From assembly GCF_014230085.1 (NCBI RefSeq), contig NZ_JACHVB010000013.1, forward strand, positions 62,001 through 126,000: DNA of 64,000 nucleotides, given 5' to 3'. Below the pieces are notes generated by a model that saw only the letters and a program-made list of their open reading frames with translations, made no database searches and was not told the origin of the DNA. Shown here one piece after another: positions 24,797 through 30,276 of the stretch; position 1 is the stretch's first letter; each line of letters opens with the position of its first letter. This stretch comes from Ruficoccus amylovorans. GTDB lineage: Bacteria > Verrucomicrobiota > Verrucomicrobiia > Opitutales > Cerasicoccaceae. A program made the translations under genes and the position numbers.

Positions 24797-24981
24797 AAGT
24801 AACGTCCATCCTACGCCCACGACCTGCCCTGCGCAACTCAAACCGCGCAATGAATGGCTTGGGAATTTGACCACCCACAGCGAAAGCATGCTACACAAAT
24901 TTCTCCCTTAAAAATGAGAGATTTACCCTAAACAGCCTTGCTACGATGCGGGAAATCATCCATTGATGGATGGTAAAGAGC

Positions 24982-25941
24982 ATGGACGCGTCCCTTTTGC
25001 CAAGCACGCCGCAGATTATCAAAAACATCGAAGAGGAACTGCGCCTCAACCAGGAAGTCTCCCAACTGAAAACCTCCGTGCGGGAGATGAAAACGCGTCT
25101 CCAGCAGCTCGAATCGTCGTTCACGCTGACCGAGCGCGTCGGCTTCGTCACGGAAGCCTCCGAAAACAAACGCCGAGAAATAAGCGCCCTGGCCACCGCC
25201 ATTAACGGCCAGATCAGCGTCATCAAGGACCGGGCCGAACGCTGGAAAACGCTCTGCGCCGAGACGGAGCGCCTGCTCGAACGCTTCCTCAGCGAAAGCG
25301 ACCAGGAATACCGCACCGGCGTGCGCGTGAAGGTCTTTTACCGCGACCTGCGCAAAAGCCTGGGCGACTTCCAGCAGGCGATCCTGGACTTCCTCAAAGG
25401 GCTCGGCCAGGCCCGTGCCGCCATGTGCGCGCAGTACGACGCCCAGAACCGAGCCTTTCACGCCAACGCCCACGAGCGCTTCGACGAGGCCGCCGCCAGC
25501 GGCCAGCGCGTGGACCGGGCCATCCGCCACTTCAACGACCTCGCCGACGGGCACACCGACGAGACCCGCCAGACCTATCTCAGCCACATCAGCCTGCCCC
25601 GGTTGACCATCCTTCACGCCCGCCAAAGCGTGCACACGATCCGCGAGCAGGACATCGCCACCGCCCACAGTCATATCGACGGGGCCATCGACCGGCTGGA
25701 GAAGTTTTTACAAACCGACCTCCCCGCGCTCGCCGAGCAGATTCGCGCCGCCGACAGCGAACACGACGAGACCACGACCCGCTACGTGGAGCAGTACTGG
25801 GAGCATCTGCGCCACCAGATCTGGCAGGAACTGCAGCGCGGCTCCACCCCCTCGCAACACGCCCGCTCCCGTCTGCGCCTGCGCCGACAACCCGACTCCG
25901 GCGACTCCCACCCCACCAGCCCCGCCCTCCAGAACGTGTAG
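24982..25941 (+). CDS. Predicted cytoplasmic helical/coiled-coil protein, unknown function
   Basis: I do not recognise a family. The protein is nearly all helical: a coiled coil at about 10-50 (rich in E/L/K/Q heptads), further helices to about residue 285 with conserved-looking segments YRTGVRVKVFYRDLRKSLGDF and YLSHISLPRLTILHARQSV, and a disordered Arg/Ser/Pro tail. No signal peptide or membrane helix is seen. The ATG at 24982 is preceded by AAAGAG at a sensible distance; an in-frame ATG at 24970 adds four residues. It is transcribed divergently from fumC. Confidence 0.75.
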   Translation: MDASLLPSTPQIIKNIEEELRLNQEVSQLKTSVREMKTRLQQLESSFTLTERVGFVTEASENKRREISALATAINGQISVIKDRAERWKTLCAETERLLERFLSESDQEYRTGVRVKVFYRDLRKSLGDFQQAILDFLKGLGQARAAMCAQYDAQNRAFHANAHERFDEAAASGQRVDRAIRHFNDLADGHTDETRQTYLSHISLPRLTILHARQSVHTIREQDIATAHSHIDGAIDRLEKFLQTDLPALAEQIRAADSEHDETTTRYVEQYWEHLRHQIWQELQRGSTPSQHARSRLRLRRQPDSGDSHPTSPALQNV

Positions 25942-25994
25942 GGTACGGGCAGTCAAGCCGACCTCCCATTTTCCGGGAAGTCCAAATGCTTTTC

Positions 25995-26060
25995 ATCCCC
26001 CAACCTCTGCGCCTTGGCGTCTCTGCGGCGAATTCATCTCTTCATCTCCAAGGCGCAACA
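25995..26060. repeat. Dispersed repeat arm (CTCTGCG..TTGGCG..CTCTGCGG)
   Basis: Between the coiled-coil gene and the epimerase lies CCTCTGCGCCTTGGCGTCTC followed by TGCGGCGAA, the same type of repeat as at 28421-28436 and 33664-33695. It appears to be a single decayed arm without an obvious inverted partner. Confidence 0.4.
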
Positions 26061-26079
26061 AAACGAGCAGAGGCAGGCC

Positions 26080-26994
26080 CTACCGCAAAATTTCGGTAAA
26101 CCCGTCCTTGTAGGTCGGATAGGCGGGCTTCCAGCCAAGCTCGCGCTCGATCAGTCCGGCGTCGATGCGGCGGTCGGGCATCCGTCCGGCTTCCGAACGC
26201 CGTCCGCTGTCACGCGAACGGGCCTGATCCGGCGCGAAGACCGGCTCGGGTTGCCCGCACTGTTGAGCCAGCCAGCCGATGATCTCGCCCCGGGGAGCCG
26301 GGTGGCCGTCGGTCACGTTGTAAATCCGGTTCGCCACCTGGGCCGGAGCCTCGAACGCGGCGAAAACAGCCCGCGCGATGTCGTCGCGATGGATGAGGTT
26401 GAGCCAGGTTTCGCCCGAGCCGGGGAACTCGGTCTTACCGGCCTTGAGCATGTCCACAAAGTAGTGGCGATTCGGGCCGTAGATCCCCCCCAGGCGCAAC
26501 GCGAACCAGCGGCTGAGGCCGGGCGCGCCCTTGAGCAGGTCTTCGGACTCCAGCAGGAGCGAGCCGGTCTCGGAAGCGTTTTCGGTTGGGGCGGTCTCGT
26601 CCACCCACTCGCCGTCGGCCTGCGGATAAACGCTCGTCGCGCTGGTGTAAACGTAGGTGCCGATGTGGCCCGTGGCGGCCCACTTGAGGATCGAGCGCTG
26701 GCCGTCGATGTACGACTTGCGGTAGCCGTCGATCCCGCCGCCGGCCGAGCTGACGCAGTTCAGGACGAAGTCCTGGTCCCGGTCAAATTTGTCGTGCCAT
26801 GCGTCGCTGTCGAGATCGGCCACTTCGACTTGCGTCAGGCCGAGGGCGCGCAGGGCCTGCGCCTTCTCCGGGTTGCGGGTCAGGGCGCGGACCTGCCAGC
26901 CCTTGGCCAGCGCCTGCCGGGCGATTTCCGAGCCGACATAGCCGCAGCCGAAGATAACGAGTGTGGGTTGGTGAGGGAGAGGTTTTGAAGACAT
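26080..26994 (-). CDS. YeeZ-like NAD(P)-dependent epimerase/dehydratase (extended SDR)
   Basis: The 304-residue protein begins with an N-terminal Rossmann nucleotide-binding motif VIFGCGYVGSEIARQALAKG (about 13-32), has the TSATSVYPQADGEWVDE segment typical of YeeZ-type atypical SDRs, RLGGIYGPNR near 167-176, and LNLIHRDDIARA around 198-209. A canonical YxxxK catalytic pair is not apparent, as in other atypical SDRs (GxxGxxG changed to GCGYVG). Substrate unknown. It is the downstream neighbour of the seven-helix protein on the same strand, about 80 bp apart. Confidence 0.8.
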   Translation of the reverse strand: MSSKPLPHQPTLVIFGCGYVGSEIARQALAKGWQVRALTRNPEKAQALRALGLTQVEVADLDSDAWHDKFDRDQDFVLNCVSSAGGGIDGYRKSYIDGQRSILKWAATGHIGTYVYTSATSVYPQADGEWVDETAPTENASETGSLLLESEDLLKGAPGLSRWFALRLGGIYGPNRHYFVDMLKAGKTEFPGSGETWLNLIHRDDIARAVFAAFEAPAQVANRIYNVTDGHPAPRGEIIGWLAQQCGQPEPVFAPDQARSRDSGRRSEAGRMPDRRIDAGLIERELGWKPAYPTYKDGFTEILR

Positions 26995-27071
26995 GGGGAT
27001 ACTGGGATTCCGGGTCTGGTGAGAGAAGATACTACCCCTTTAAAGCATCTGCCGCCGATGGCAAGCCGCGT

Positions 27072-28160
27072 TCAGCTTTCGTCGGAATCCTTCATCCGCT
27101 TGGCTGGGCGGCGGAACTTCGGCTTGGGGCGGGCGACAGCGGAGTCGTCACCCGAAGCGGTATCTTCCCCTTCAGCCTCGGCCCGCAATTCGGCAACCTC
27201 AGCCGCCGGTTCCCCGGTGTAGGCGGCGTCCTCGTCCGCGACCGGTTCCTCGTCTTCGAGGATCTCCTGCACCTCCATGGTGGAGGGAGCAATCCGGGCC
27301 TTGCGGAAGGCGGGCTTCATCACGATACGGGCGGCCTTGCGACCGGCTCCCTGATAGAACCCGTACGCGATCAGCACGACCGTCACCAGGTCCACCATGT
27401 TCAGCAGGAACGGATAAAGCGAACTGCTCGGCAGGAAGCGCGAGAGCAGATTCAGGAACGGGTAGAGGAACCACCCGCAGGCGATGACCAGCACGATCAC
27501 CGTCACGCCCCGCCGGAGGTTTTCCGGCACGTCATCCTCCGGCAGCGAACCGAGGGTGAAAAACAGCATCACGATCAGGCTGGCCGAACACGTGAACGAC
27601 CCCAACGCGAACACGAGTTGGAGCCCCTGCGACACGCTGGCGAGGTTCGACAGCGCGATAAAGAAGAAGACCCCGGCAGCCATGCCGAACATCACCACGT
27701 ACACCGGCAAGTCCTTTTTCGCCACATGGATCAGGCGCGAGAGCATGACAAAAAGGAACGGTGCCAGGAAGGTCCAGCAGGCCCCGCGCACGACCAGGTT
27801 ATAGGTGTCGGAGTGCCCCGAGAGGAACTCAGCGAAGCTGGACTTGGCGACGAAAAAGCTCCCCGCCAACACGAACAAAAAGATCCCGAAGCCCACCATC
27901 TCCCCGAAGTGGACCTGCGCCCGCCGCCGGAATGCCTGCGCGAGGAAAAACACCCCCAACAGGCCGAAGAGCACGAGATCGACCAGAAACGACTGGTACG
28001 TCAGCTTGTCGAAGGGCGTGATCGTCAACGGCTCGGACGACGCCTCGACCACCGCCGTGGCGGTGGACTCCGTCGCCTGACCGGAAAGCACCGGCGTCCA
28101 ATCGTCCACCTCCGTGCTCACCGGGGGGAGTTTATCTACTAAAACCGCTTTTTCTGCCAT
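27072..28160 (-). CDS. Seven-helix membrane protein resembling a microbial rhodopsin but lacking the retinal lysine
   Basis: Seven membrane helices are visible at about 55-78, 87-105, 122-146, 151-171, 178-204, 216-240 and 247-270, preceded by a 50-residue head and followed by a 90-residue acidic then basic tail. Helix C reads RGACWTFLAP (Arg125, Cys128, Trp129, Pro134), aligning with proteorhodopsin Arg94, Asp97, Trp98 and Pro103. Helix E has FALG, helix F has GWFLYP (Trp230, Tyr233, Pro234), and helix G has NMVDLVTV, where Asp257 matches the Schiff-base counterion Asp and Val261 occupies the position of the retinal-binding Lys. The proton acceptor is Cys and the donor position is Met139. 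If homologous, it is a non-retinal, non-pumping rhodopsin relative. The family call is my alignment by eye; an unrelated 7TM protein remains possible. Confidence 0.5.
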   Translation of the reverse strand: MAEKAVLVDKLPPVSTEVDDWTPVLSGQATESTATAVVEASSEPLTITPFDKLTYQSFLVDLVLFGLLGVFFLAQAFRRRAQVHFGEMVGFGIFLFVLAGSFFVAKSSFAEFLSGHSDTYNLVVRGACWTFLAPFLFVMLSRLIHVAKKDLPVYVVMFGMAAGVFFFIALSNLASVSQGLQLVFALGSFTCSASLIVMLFFTLGSLPEDDVPENLRRGVTVIVLVIACGWFLYPFLNLLSRFLPSSSLYPFLLNMVDLVTVVLIAYGFYQGAGRKAARIVMKPAFRKARIAPSTMEVQEILEDEEPVADEDAAYTGEPAAEVAELRAEAEGEDTASGDDSAVARPKPKFRRPAKRMKDSDES

Positions 28161-28321
28161 AAACCGAAGGGGTTAATGCCCCACTCAAACGGCCAGAACC
28201 CCCGATATCCAGCGCGAATTCCGCTTTTACCGGATGTTACAGGCGCATTTAGGGGACAGACCTCATCCCTTGGCCGGCCATCCGACCCAAAGCCGTTCGG
28301 TGTAGTCAACTCAGGCCTAGC

Positions 28322-28475
28322 CTAGTGTCGTGTTAGCTAAGTTCTTAACAAATGTTAATGGCCACAAAAAGGCACAAGAAGCACAGAAAACTTCGTGGAT
28401 ACAGAGTTCGCTCTGCGTCTTTGCGCCTCTGCGGTGAAAATATTTTTATCAGGAACTAAGCTAACGGGACACTAG
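28322..28475. mobile_element. MITE-like element 1 (about 25-bp terminal inverted repeats, CTAG flanks)
   Basis: CTAGTGTCGTGTTAGCTAAG (28322 onward) matches the reverse complement of 28451-28475 (CTAGTGTCCCGTTAGCTTAG) with four mismatches over 25 bp. CTAG at both edges could be a target duplication. There is no ORF inside. The interior is itself a palindrome of the CACAAAAAGGCAC / GCGCCTCTGCGGTG dispersed-repeat type. It lies in the 555-bp gap between the rhodopsin-like gene and the secreted protein; the remaining 28161-28321 holds nothing I recognise. Confidence 0.6.
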
Positions 28476-28476
28476 T

Positions 28477-28701
28477 GTTGTGTCTTCAAATTACGGAGCG
28501 AGTCCACGCAGGTTGGTTTTGAGCATGTTTTTCGGCTTTCGAGGCGAGGCAATTCAAGAATTGATTCGCCTTCGGCTCAGGGCTTCGCCCCAAATACTGC
28601 GTATTTGTCCATCTGCGCTTCGCTCCGTTCCGAGCCGAGGAAACGAAAAACGGGCCAAAATCCGGCCAAGTGGGCGACGTGAGATAATTTGAAGACACGA
28701 C
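28477..28701. mobile_element. MITE-like element 2 (17-bp terminal inverted repeats)
   Basis: GTTGTGTCTTCAAATTA at 28477-28493 is the inverted copy, with one mismatch, of 28685-28701. The 225-bp element is an imperfect palindrome over most of its length (arms TTTTGAGCATGTTTTTCGG and CGAAAAACGGGCCAAAA) with inner hairpins such as CAAATACTGCGTATTTG. Because it is palindromic, both strands carry a mirror-image 70-codon open frame beginning MSSNY, which is an artefact. Its termini share the TGTYGTGT start with element 1, which abuts it. Confidence 0.65.
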
Positions 28702-28715
28702 CTAACCCAGGCGAC

Positions 28716-29372
28716 CTACTCTTCCGCCACCCGATGCAAGACGAAAAACCACACCTCATCCTTACCGATACACGGCATGGTGGCCAGCGGCAGCTCTTCC
28801 GGCAGATTCTGTTTCGAGCTGGTTTCCCGTGTGGAGAAAAGGGGCACGGGAATCGGCGATCCGGCTGCCAGCGGCAACCACTTATCCAGCGTGACGAGGC
28901 TGAGCTTTATCTCACCCTGGCCGCGACCACGGCCATCCTCGCGCACCTCAGCCGTAAACCCGACCTGCCGCTCCTCGAACTCCGACGGCTCGCCGGACTC
29001 ATCCAACGCCGTGGCGTAGGACAAGGTCCACGACTGGTCCAGCGACCAGAGACCCGGCTCCGCCTGCTCCAGTTCCCCGTAGGCAAGGAGCGTGAGACCT
29101 TTGCCACCCATGTCGGCCAGGGCTTGCCCGGCCAGACGCGTGTAGGCATCCGGATCCGGCCCGCTATAAAACTCCGGCAGCGAGTACAGGGTCATCATCT
29201 TTCCATCCTCAACCGGAACAGTTTCTGCCTTCACGGCGTCCATATCATAGCCCTGAGCCTCCATCCACGGCCAATCCACAATAAAAAAATACGCCCTGAA
29301 CGTGTCAGCACGCAGCGTGGAGAGGCAAGCGATGAGGGCAACAGCCCACAGCAGGCAACGATGGTTTCTCAT
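28716..29372 (-). CDS. Secreted or periplasmic hypothetical protein
   Basis: No family recognised. The ATG at 29372 gives 218 residues with a clear signal peptide (MRNHRCLLWAVALIACLSTLRA, cleavage probably after the Ala near 22). The mature part is mainly beta-like, with TVPVEDGKMMTLYSLPEFYSG, a segment GQGEIKLSLVTLDKWLPLAAG, and a closing PCIGKDEVWFFVLHRVAE that resembles the VGL-rich end of type II/III secretion-system-like beta sandwich proteins only loosely. Its start is 28 bp inside the 3' neighbour's spacing and it is codirectional with the upstream nucleotidyltransferase stop (29401). Confidence 0.65.
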   Translation of the reverse strand: MRNHRCLLWAVALIACLSTLRADTFRAYFFIVDWPWMEAQGYDMDAVKAETVPVEDGKMMTLYSLPEFYSGPDPDAYTRLAGQALADMGGKGLTLLAYGELEQAEPGLWSLDQSWTLSYATALDESGEPSEFEERQVGFTAEVREDGRGRGQGEIKLSLVTLDKWLPLAAGSPIPVPLFSTRETSSKQNLPEELPLATMPCIGKDEVWFFVLHRVAEE

Positions 29373-29400
29373 GGGTATCACCCCATCGTAGGGCAATCCA

Positions 29401-30276
29401 TCATCCCAGCGCAAGCAAACGCTCCTGCACCCGGGGCTTGTCCGCCGGGTAGGTCACGCCGAACCATTCCCCGCTCGTCGGCAGGACCGTGCAGCGGGCG
29501 CGCCCGGCGCGGATGAGGTCGTCCACCACGGTCGGGATGTAGCACTCGGACTTGAGTTCCCCGCCGTGGGCTTGCAGGAATTCGCAAAAATGCTCCTCCA
29601 GCACCGCGAAGAGCGCCGGAGTGAAGCCCCAGAAATTCATCGACACCGGCGCGTCGAGCGGGATCTCCACCCGCTCCCCGGCGAGGTTGTTACCGCGCAC
29701 GTTGCCGTCGTCCTCCTGCCGGATGTCCGTGTGTTCCTCCACCGTTTGCAGGAAAGGGCCGTCGAGTCGGCAGACACCGCGGTTGACGCTCCCGTGGGGC
29801 GAGAGGGTGTTTTTCAGCGGGTAACCGACCATGCACAGTTCGCCCGCCTCGGCGGGGTCGAGCGTGCGCAGGTGCGCGAGGATGCGCGCGTAGGCATCGG
29901 CCCCGTAATAGTCGTCGGCATTGATCGCGATAAAGGGATCGTTCACCACCGCGCGGGCGGCGCGGATCGCGTGAGCCGTGCCCCAGGGCTTCGTCCGCCC
30001 CTCCGGCACGATGTACCCGGCGGGCAGGTCCCCCAACTCCTGAAAGGCGTATTCCACCTCCATCAGCGCGGTGGCCTTCTCCCCCACCCCTTGCCGGAAA
30101 GCCTCGGCAAAGTCCCGGCGGATGACGAAGACCGCTTTCCCGAAGCCCGCCGCCGCCGCGTCGCGCAGCGAATAGTCGAGCAGCGTTTCGCCATTGGGCC
30201 CCATCGGGTCGAGTTGCTTGAGACCGCCGTAGCGGCTGCCCATTCCGGCGGCGAGGACGAGGAGAGTCGGTTTCAT
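29401..30276 (-). CDS. Sugar-phosphate nucleotidyltransferase-like protein
   Basis: The 291-residue protein starts MKPTLLVLAAGMGSRYGGLKQLDPMGPNGETLLDYSL, the GT-A fold nucleotide-binding signature L-A-A-G-x-G-x-R, and has INADDYYGADAYARIL (the metal-binding Asp region near 112-127) and NRGVCRLDG. It should activate a sugar 1-phosphate with an NTP, but the lack of a clear UTP- or dTTP-type signature leaves the sugar unknown. The upstream-extended frame is non-conserved. A palindromic repeat lies upstream, and no polysaccharide gene cluster is adjacent. Confidence 0.8.
   Translation of the reverse strand: MKPTLLVLAAGMGSRYGGLKQLDPMGPNGETLLDYSLRDAAAAGFGKAVFVIRRDFAEAFRQGVGEKATALMEVEYAFQELGDLPAGYIVPEGRTKPWGTAHAIRAARAVVNDPFIAINADDYYGADAYARILAHLRTLDPAEAGELCMVGYPLKNTLSPHGSVNRGVCRLDGPFLQTVEEHTDIRQEDDGNVRGNNLAGERVEIPLDAPVSMNFWGFTPALFAVLEEHFCEFLQAHGGELKSECYIPTVVDDLIRAGRARCTVLPTSGEWFGVTYPADKPRVQERLLALG

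Follow-up and report, generated by a model that had tools for sequence, protein, structure and literature searches.

Type-1 opsins without the retinal-binding lysine are known from haloarchaea and fungi (PMC4915679, in the part of that report available) as well as from Guillardia and, with a broader distribution, under the name Rh-noK (PMC7714340, likewise in part). In the accessible text on the haloarchaeal ORPs, all eight species with an ORP and no canonical opsin are described as being without crtY and brp, and the idea that microbial opsins may act as non-light, GPCR-like receptors is put forward as an open proposal (PMC4915679). A rhodopsin survey of Verrucomicrobiota, as far as its available sections state, kept only lysine-bearing sequences for analysis (PMC10284914), so that a lysine-less group would be passed over. 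No description of the lysine-less Opitutales family reported here was found in the literature searched, which covered the topics of rhodopsins in Verrucomicrobiota, Rh-noK, ORPs and FArhodopsins and mostly papers outside subscription. New here are the bacterial lineage, the tails and architecture, and the near-complete separation from rhodopsin and PF15461 genes, lysine-less opsins themselves being already known.

The window analyzed is a stretch of 64,000 nucleotides from Ruficoccus amylovorans, whose assembly (G000; 4.5 Mb in 64 contigs) has a stated completeness of 97.78%. Because the protein described below has kept the rhodopsin fold and lost the photochemistry, we take it to be a retinal-free, rhodopsin-derived seven-transmembrane protein that would serve as a light-independent membrane receptor or hub, with a probability of roughly 0.6. 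The nearest named relatives come from Verrucomicrobiota metagenome-assembled genomes, JB024 (74% identity) and Verrucomicrobiia isolate 5_bin.45 (57%). The gene, its parts and its downstream neighbor are placed as follows (window coordinates):

27072..28160, minus strand: lysine-less rhodopsin-like gene, 362 aa, ATG start, stop codon included (open reading frame list, homologues and dN/dS)
28119..28160, minus strand: conserved N-terminal tip, residues 1-14, MAEKAVLVDKLPPV (conservation over 13 rows and pattern scan)
28017..28118, minus strand: low-confidence linker between the tip and helix A, residues 15-48 (pLDDT, N-tail lengths and loop charges)
27345..28016, minus strand: seven-helix core of bacteriorhodopsin type, residues 49-272 (AlphaFold2 model, Foldseek, VIA-align and hhalign)
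27786..27788, minus strand: codon of Arg125, at the position of bacteriorhodopsin (BR) Arg82, in the helix C motif R-x-x-C-W-x-x-x-x-P (alignment with genuine rhodopsins)
27378..27380, minus strand: codon of Val261, the site of the retinal-binding lysine (BR K216), which is V, L or M in 13/13 homologues and K in 12/12 genuine rhodopsins
27072..27344, minus strand: charged, probably cytosolic C-tail, residues 273-362, with the basic stretch KPKFRRPAKRMKD at its end (alignment, pLDDT and charge counts)
26080..26994, minus strand: NAD-dependent epimerase/dehydratase-like (SDR) gene, 77 bases downstream of the rhodopsin-like gene (Pfam and neighborhood comparison)

Between the gene and the next one upstream, some 550 bases (window 28170-28700) hold no assigned gene and gave no Rfam or tRNA match, and no sigma-70-like promoter match was found within window 25900-29500. 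On the plus strand, window 24970-25941 contains a 323-aa open reading frame that looks coiled-coil-like by eye, with weak Pfam matches below cut-off.

Taken as a single sequence, the window protein matched PF01036 with an E of 0.0093 and 15.9 bits, below the gathering cut-off of 24.6, and matched none of the NCBIfam models. A single-sequence search of the PDB ranked FtsW (0.56) above a rhodopsin (2.5), neither of them convincing. In a member-by-member Pfam search of A1, an alignment of ten lysine-less homologues, PF01036 appeared at E<=1 in three members (best 0.0093), DUF996 likewise in three, and one row matched EpsG at 0.00089, better than any A1 match to PF01036. With three of ten rows reaching PF01036 at this level and one preferring EpsG, single sequences do not settle the family, and most of these results would suit an unrelated seven-helix membrane protein that resembles rhodopsins by chance. 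The profile search of solved sequences, in which actinorhodopsin 9hfk (0.0077) came first and ESR 4hyj (0.043) second, can be read partly in the same direction, as dopamine transporters (0.11-0.12) came next, ahead of further rhodopsins.

Chance resemblance is, however, contradicted by the comparison of profiles. Aligned by hhalign with A3, nine genuine rhodopsins of the same order, A1 gave a probability of 94.9, an E of 4.8e-8 (for one comparison) and a score of 61.8 over 221 columns. The transmembrane core alone scored 55.2, against 17.4 and 18.2 for reversed-profile controls and at most 31.2 for 60 local shuffles, and the E of the core comparison was still 8.1e-7 when L012, an A1 row without the helix F and G landmarks, was removed. 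It is contradicted, moreover, by a phmmer search of 132 genomes of the order, in which the window protein retrieved, besides its close homologues, the lysine-bearing rhodopsins L017 (1.1e-6) and L016 (5.3e-4), and by the fold matches and the landmark residues in register that are described below. We give chance resemblance almost no probability and regard the window protein as almost certainly rhodopsin-derived by descent.

Among nine genuine rhodopsins tested, the family HMM gave 48.0 bits on the rhodopsin of genome G069 and at most 11.7 on the other eight. The G069 rhodopsin reads D-T-K in the joint alignment and we take it to be ESR-like, ESR itself presumably being D-T-K. In a phylogenetic tree, 13 lysine-less rows lay together on one side of a branch with a support of 100/100, joining near the rhodopsins L039 and L043 through long branches, about which the tool issued a warning; the tree was built without haloarchaeal sequences. 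Three rhodopsins (L032, L035, L043) were in the tree and outside A3, and three that were masked, cut or partial (L041, L044, L046) were outside both. The profile of the f11 members, which belong to another family of the order than the host's family (f1), gave no direct match to rhodopsins when used alone and is linked to them only through f1. The best explanation of these sequence comparisons is that the lysine-less family probably descended from, or is sister to, ESR-like (D-T-K) proteorhodopsins.

An AlphaFold2 model of the window protein, a predicted and not a solved structure, was built from ten sequences without templates. It contains seven helices (residues 49-78, 85-113, 123-144, 148-171, 178-204, 213-239 and 248-272), with 10-residue pLDDT means of 78-97 over residues 51 to 270 and values mostly below 50 in the tails, including residues 1-42. 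Foldseek against the PDB gave a best E of 3e-5 and 30 chains at E<=1e-3, of which 25 are titled as rhodopsin; the remaining five (Kin4B8 three times, psXR, and 5jsi, titled 'membrane protein') we also take to be rhodopsins. VIA-align placed the model on HeimdallR1 with a Z of 24.1 (rmsd 2.8, 223 residues aligned), with the PsFAR mutant at 23.7 and ESR 4hyj at 23.0, and the apo-proteorhodopsin 8cnk was among the best matches; rows within 1 Z unit are tied, and Z was 22-24 across the best 50 rows listed. The viral fold library gave no match to the model at E<=1e-3. The predicted fold is thus the seven-helix bacteriorhodopsin arrangement, as the first-pass annotation, made from the letters of the window, had anticipated. 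For the f11 member L015, whose model was built from an alignment that also contained f1 rows, the mean pLDDT was 68.6 and helices E and F were broken up; no fold match reached E<=1e-3, and the best rows, from 2.9e-3, were mostly microbial rhodopsins mixed with GPCRs, so a bacteriorhodopsin fold for the f11 members is suggestive only.

Landmark residues were counted in a joint alignment of 13 homologues and 12 genuine rhodopsins, from which a frame-broken copy in G112 was left out. We take R125, C128, W129, P134, M139, W230/Y233/P234, D257 and V261 to be the equivalents of BR R82, D85, W86, P91, D96, W182/Y185/P186, D212 and K216. The residues that the first-pass annotation had picked out (R125, C128, W129, P134, W230/Y233/P234, N254, D257 and V261) align with the genuine rhodopsins at the positions it gave, and its description of the protein as a lysine-less relative of microbial rhodopsins is confirmed by the predicted fold, by profile homology and by Val261 in the lysine place. 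It was also right that the proton acceptor has become Cys (C128 at the D85 site) and the donor Met (M139 at the D96 site); the FALG of helix E is present, but nothing seen here suggests that this motif is typical of rhodopsins.

Loss of the lysine, raised as a question for the clade as a whole, extends to all 13 aligned homologues, which have V, L or M in its place, and none of them therefore has the helix G Schiff-base lysine of a functional rhodopsin. Under the broad ORP/Rh-noK definition, a type-1 opsin homologue without the lysine, the family is included. The D85 site holds C, S, T, V or L in the 13 homologues and the D96 site M, V, I or L. Of the conserved set that had been expected, Trp (W86 site) and Pro (P91 site) are kept in 13/13 rows and Asp257 (D212 site) in 12/13, but Arg125 (R82 site) in only 9/13; W182 and Y185 are kept in 9/13 and P186 in 12/13. 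All nine f1 rows retain R82, W86, P91, W182, Y185, P186 and D212, while several landmarks are lost in three f11 rows and in L012, the f3 member. The f11 rows are without the R82, W182 and Y185 equivalents, and with the missing direct profile match to rhodopsins this makes a common pocket doubtful in f11.

Covalently bound retinal is very probably absent from the lysine-less family. A lysine in helix B, at position 106 or 107 in all ten A1 rows, was considered as an alternative attachment site and is an unlikely one, since ESR (4hyj) has an aligned lysine. Retinal taken up from the surroundings, or some other polyene, might still lodge in the space flanked by W129 and W230 with no Schiff base and so make the protein a non-covalent photoreceptor. 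The W86, W182, Y185 and P186 equivalents are retained together in 9/13 rows, and the empty proteorhodopsin pocket, in a structure reported in the accessible part of PMC11322631, can hold non-covalent decanoate, whose carboxylate pairs there with the retinal lysine; 8cnk, an apo-proteorhodopsin, is among the best fold matches. Such a photoreceptor is nevertheless very unlikely: PF15461, the oxygenase model by which retinal supply was judged, was unmatched in 13 of 14 carrier genomes, the f1 pocket has changed at three sites (C, S or T at D85, A at T90, and N at W189, a site that is Y or F in genuine Opitutales rhodopsins), f11 is without most of the cage, and the helix B lysine is an improbable substitute that ESR shares.

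The lysine-less gene was found at E<=1e-3 in 14 of the 132 genomes of the order, nine in f1, one in f3 and four in f11; 13 further genomes of the order with weaker matches, up to E 1, were excluded from the count. In the host's family it is present in nine of ten genomes, G117 being the only one without it. Searches of the class with A1 and of the phylum with the alignment A4 gave at least 11 of 384 genomes (one of which, G055, is a match to a genuine rhodopsin) and at least 11 of 387 (one of which is a marginal partial match outside the order); these were thin, even samples in which at most 4 or 5 candidates per genome were scored. As all the genome searches scored just the candidates from a permissive initial pass, misses are possible. 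The match outside the order, in G496, is partial (E 9.5e-4) and was not counted as a family member.

Genuine rhodopsins, defined by PF01036 above cut-off, occur in 13/132 genomes of the order and the retinal-forming PF15461 oxygenase in 19/132, and the presence of PF15461 in all 13 rhodopsin genomes served as a positive control; neither model matched any of 14 well-known control genomes. Among the 14 genomes with the lysine-less gene, 13, including the 97.78% complete genome of the window itself, matched neither PF01036 nor PF15461, the sole exception being G069, which has both. Retinal supply was judged from PF15461 alone, and several assemblies are drafts. The absence of both matches from the window's own genome fits the light independence that the first-pass annotation had proposed, and its suggested check for retinal-synthesis genes came out, for PF15461, as that proposal would have it. 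As the lysine is lost, mostly in genomes without rhodopsin or PF15461, the fold has seemingly been reused for a light-free job, and a light-independent role is likely for the family.

The annotation had offered, as a second option, a scaffold partner of a genuine rhodopsin. A partner or regulator in a mixed oligomer has been suggested for Rh-noK, and Rh-noK genes adjoining pump genes are described in the available parts of PMC10308929 and PMC7714340. G069 has both genes, and its rhodopsin is the closest to the family of the nine tested. The lack of a PF01036 match in 13/14 carriers, the nearly complete genome of the window among them, contradicts a general role of this kind, which we consider exceedingly unlikely.

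The N-terminal tip and the N-tail that follows it are absent from the first-pass annotation. The tip follows a pattern like M.E[KRP]..L...LPP, in which M1, E3, P12 and P13 are invariant in 13/13 rows and L7 is found in at least 90%, and it is invariant across the three families. In 810,170 fetched bases, mostly from around these genes, the pattern occurred only at the starts of 14 distinct family members. The tail before residue 47 measures 46-161 aa in the 13 rows; that of the window protein is the shortest, and the linker after the tip is longer in 12/12 relatives, variable in length and often rich in Pro, Ala, Lys and Glu, with many lysines in some tails. Summed over 13 rows, loops 1, 3 and 5 contain 144 K/R and loops 2, 4 and 6 contain 31; these loop charges predict an N-out, C-in topology, as in rhodopsins, which would place the N-tail outside, and on this sequence evidence the N-terminal arm is probably periplasmic. 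The N-tail is hydrophilic and no signal peptide was apparent by eye; export of so long an N-tail with no signal peptide would be unusual. At the other end, the 90-residue charged tail that had been noted is present as residues 273-362 after helix G, with 16 K/R and 21 D/E in residues 267-362. Its last residues form a basic stretch in most f1 rows and read KPKKRF in three f11 rows.

The lysine-less gene is under purifying selection. By the method of Nei and Gojobori (own script), four pairs within the genus gave dN/dS values of 0.15, 0.19, 0.21 and 0.28. In three others, with synonymous change close to saturation (dS 1.7-2.4), the range was 0.065-0.106, and the last of the eight pairs was saturated, with a pN/pS of 0.24. 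These values argue against a decaying rhodopsin gene without function, as do the presence of the gene in 9/10 genomes of the host's family and the conservation of the tip. The loss of key photochemical residues could be expected of decay, and one of the four f11 copies (G112, L106:8803-9944) is split by a frame break in which decay and assembly error are indistinguishable, yet decay is barely credible as an account of the family.

Gene neighborhoods differ between the families. In the window, the adjacent genes encode the SDR and a protein without a Pfam match; no MCP/HAMP transducer gene lies immediately beside the rhodopsin-like gene, and neither adjacent gene has the SPFH Pfam match of a flotillin, the other carriers being judged on both points by homology and start letters. 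The SDR gene directly follows the rhodopsin-like gene in 9/9 f1 carriers, and an acyltransferase gene precedes it in two genera (five genomes; PF01553 at 23.2 bits against a cut-off of 23 in the one of five tested). In G117, which has no rhodopsin-like gene, acyltransferase and SDR adjoin each other, from which it follows that the gene was inserted or lost there with its neighbors undisturbed. Retention of this pair without the gene weakens the SDR as a functional partner, and its link in f1 is probably positional.

In all four f11 genomes, the genes that follow the rhodopsin-like gene encode, in this order, a Ser/Thr kinase, a 241-aa protein that matched no Pfam model, an ATPase of ParA type and a 343-aa protein (Pfam on one genome):

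L056:9823-13618, L057:3591-7414, L058:4767-8544 and L106:9980-13761: kinase, 241-aa protein, ParA and 343-aa protein in a row in f11

The ParA was rejected as a specific partner in f1, where 10/10 genomes, even G117, have a relative that lies on a different contig or at a distance. The kinase was likewise set aside as a general partner, being unmatched at 1e-40 in 10/10 f1 genomes in a search run without a positive control. In f3, the downstream gene is purC-like, as judged from the letters only. Three neighborhoods for one protein family argue against a single obligatory neighbor. Separately, relatives of the ParA and of the 241-aa protein are found close together in G000, G083 and G117, in opposite orientation and with no kinase match beside them.

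Some observations concern the genuine rhodopsins. Two small genes precede each of the ESR-like rhodopsin genes of G069 (L107:7926-11764) and G055 (L108:6505-9923), and one of these four genes, in L108, is weakly Roadblock/LC7-like (PF03259, E 0.026, below cut-off). If its partners are Roadblock-like, such a rhodopsin might have a sensory role. In G069 the rhodopsin gene is followed by a lycopene cyclase gene (PF05834) and by a gene at the position of the PF15461 match, and the G055 rhodopsin gene (L108:7443-8123) appears frame-broken, with two partial PF01036 matches.

How a light-independent receptor or hub might work can be sketched from these features. With the Schiff-base lysine gone, and with it both the acceptor and the donor of protons, the protein would work without light, through a seven-helix body whose loop charges suggest an N-out, C-in orientation. 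The flexible outer arm may present its conserved tip to a partner in the periplasm or outer membrane, and the emptied pocket, which in f1 retains the W86, W182, Y185 and P186 equivalents, may accommodate a lipid or another lipophilic ligand. Binding would then displace the helices, a change that the charged, basic-ended C-tail could relay to a cytosolic partner. No ligand, partner or output was found, and the neighbors differ by family (acyltransferase and SDR in f1, kinase and ParA in f11, a purC-like gene in f3). A sensor, as the first-pass annotation had proposed, is plausible. The more specific picture of a bacterial analogue of a non-visual GPCR, in which a response in the cytosol is set off by the periplasmic arm with its fixed tip, or by a lipid occupying the former retinal pocket, is in our estimate unlikely; in f11, the co-located Ser/Thr kinase would perhaps be the output of such a receptor.

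The main rival, along the lines put forward for opsin-related proteins of yeast, is a simple scaffold or a chaperone of the membrane, with neither ligand nor signaling, in which the fold has been kept for stability and for building oligomers. In its favor are that the W86 and P91 sites are kept in 13/13 rows while pocket and proton-path sites vary, most of all in f11, and that no transducer gene is immediately adjacent in the window. Specific partners are suggested instead by the tip, invariant at the N-terminus, and by the basic C-terminal end conserved in most f1 rows, and a pure scaffold need not keep the W86/W182/Y185/P186/D212 set that 9/9 f1 rows retain. We consider the scaffold somewhat unlikely, and a receptor or hub in preference to a plain scaffold or chaperone possible, if short of probable.

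For the receptor or hub reading, the family offers a separate bacterial lineage in which opsins can be tested as non-light receptors. Since only one of the nine carriers in the host's family has a rhodopsin or PF15461 match, a role of light can probably be discounted at the outset, and the invariant N-tip and the basic C-end provide two handles for finding partners.

Among known systems, the ESR-like proteorhodopsins (L039/L017 of G069, L043/L016 of G055, and 4hyj) share the fold and are the closest by sequence of the nine tested. L039 and L043 still have the retinal lysine, together with Asp as the acceptor and Lys as the donor-site residue, whereas the lysine-less family does not; L039 is, furthermore, without long tails, and its gene in G069 sits with lycopene cyclase and PF15461 genes. 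Y174 and W178 of the haloarchaeal ORPs presumably occupy the Y185 and W189 places. According to the accessible part of PMC4915679, the ORPs have lost both residues, whereas f1 keeps Y185 and has lost the W189 place. They too are lysine-less type-1 opsins, with a hydrophobic residue in the lysine place (group B), and their retinal gene pattern has a counterpart here, as 13/13 rhodopsin-free carriers are without PF15461, the only retinal gene judged. As described there, ORPs are closest to sensory opsins and often lie beside MCP transducer genes, whereas the window gene has none adjacent; the Opitutales family, unlike the ORPs, adds a conserved N-tip and tails. Rh-noK and the fungal ORPs are likewise lysine-less type-1 opsins, and some Rh-noK genes adjoin proteorhodopsin and retinal genes (PMC7714340, in its available part), whereas 13/14 carriers here are without rhodopsin. 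Finally, the FArhodopsins (PMC10308929, as far as accessible; PDB 9r21/9r23) are divergent type-1 opsins, most freshwater ones being lysine-less, with Z scores to the model of 23.7 (mutant) and 23.5. Marine FArhodopsin genomes are stated in that text always to have a genuine proteorhodopsin as well and an adjacent flotillin gene, whereas 13/14 carriers of the Opitutales family have no second proteorhodopsin and no flotillin gene adjoins the gene in the window.
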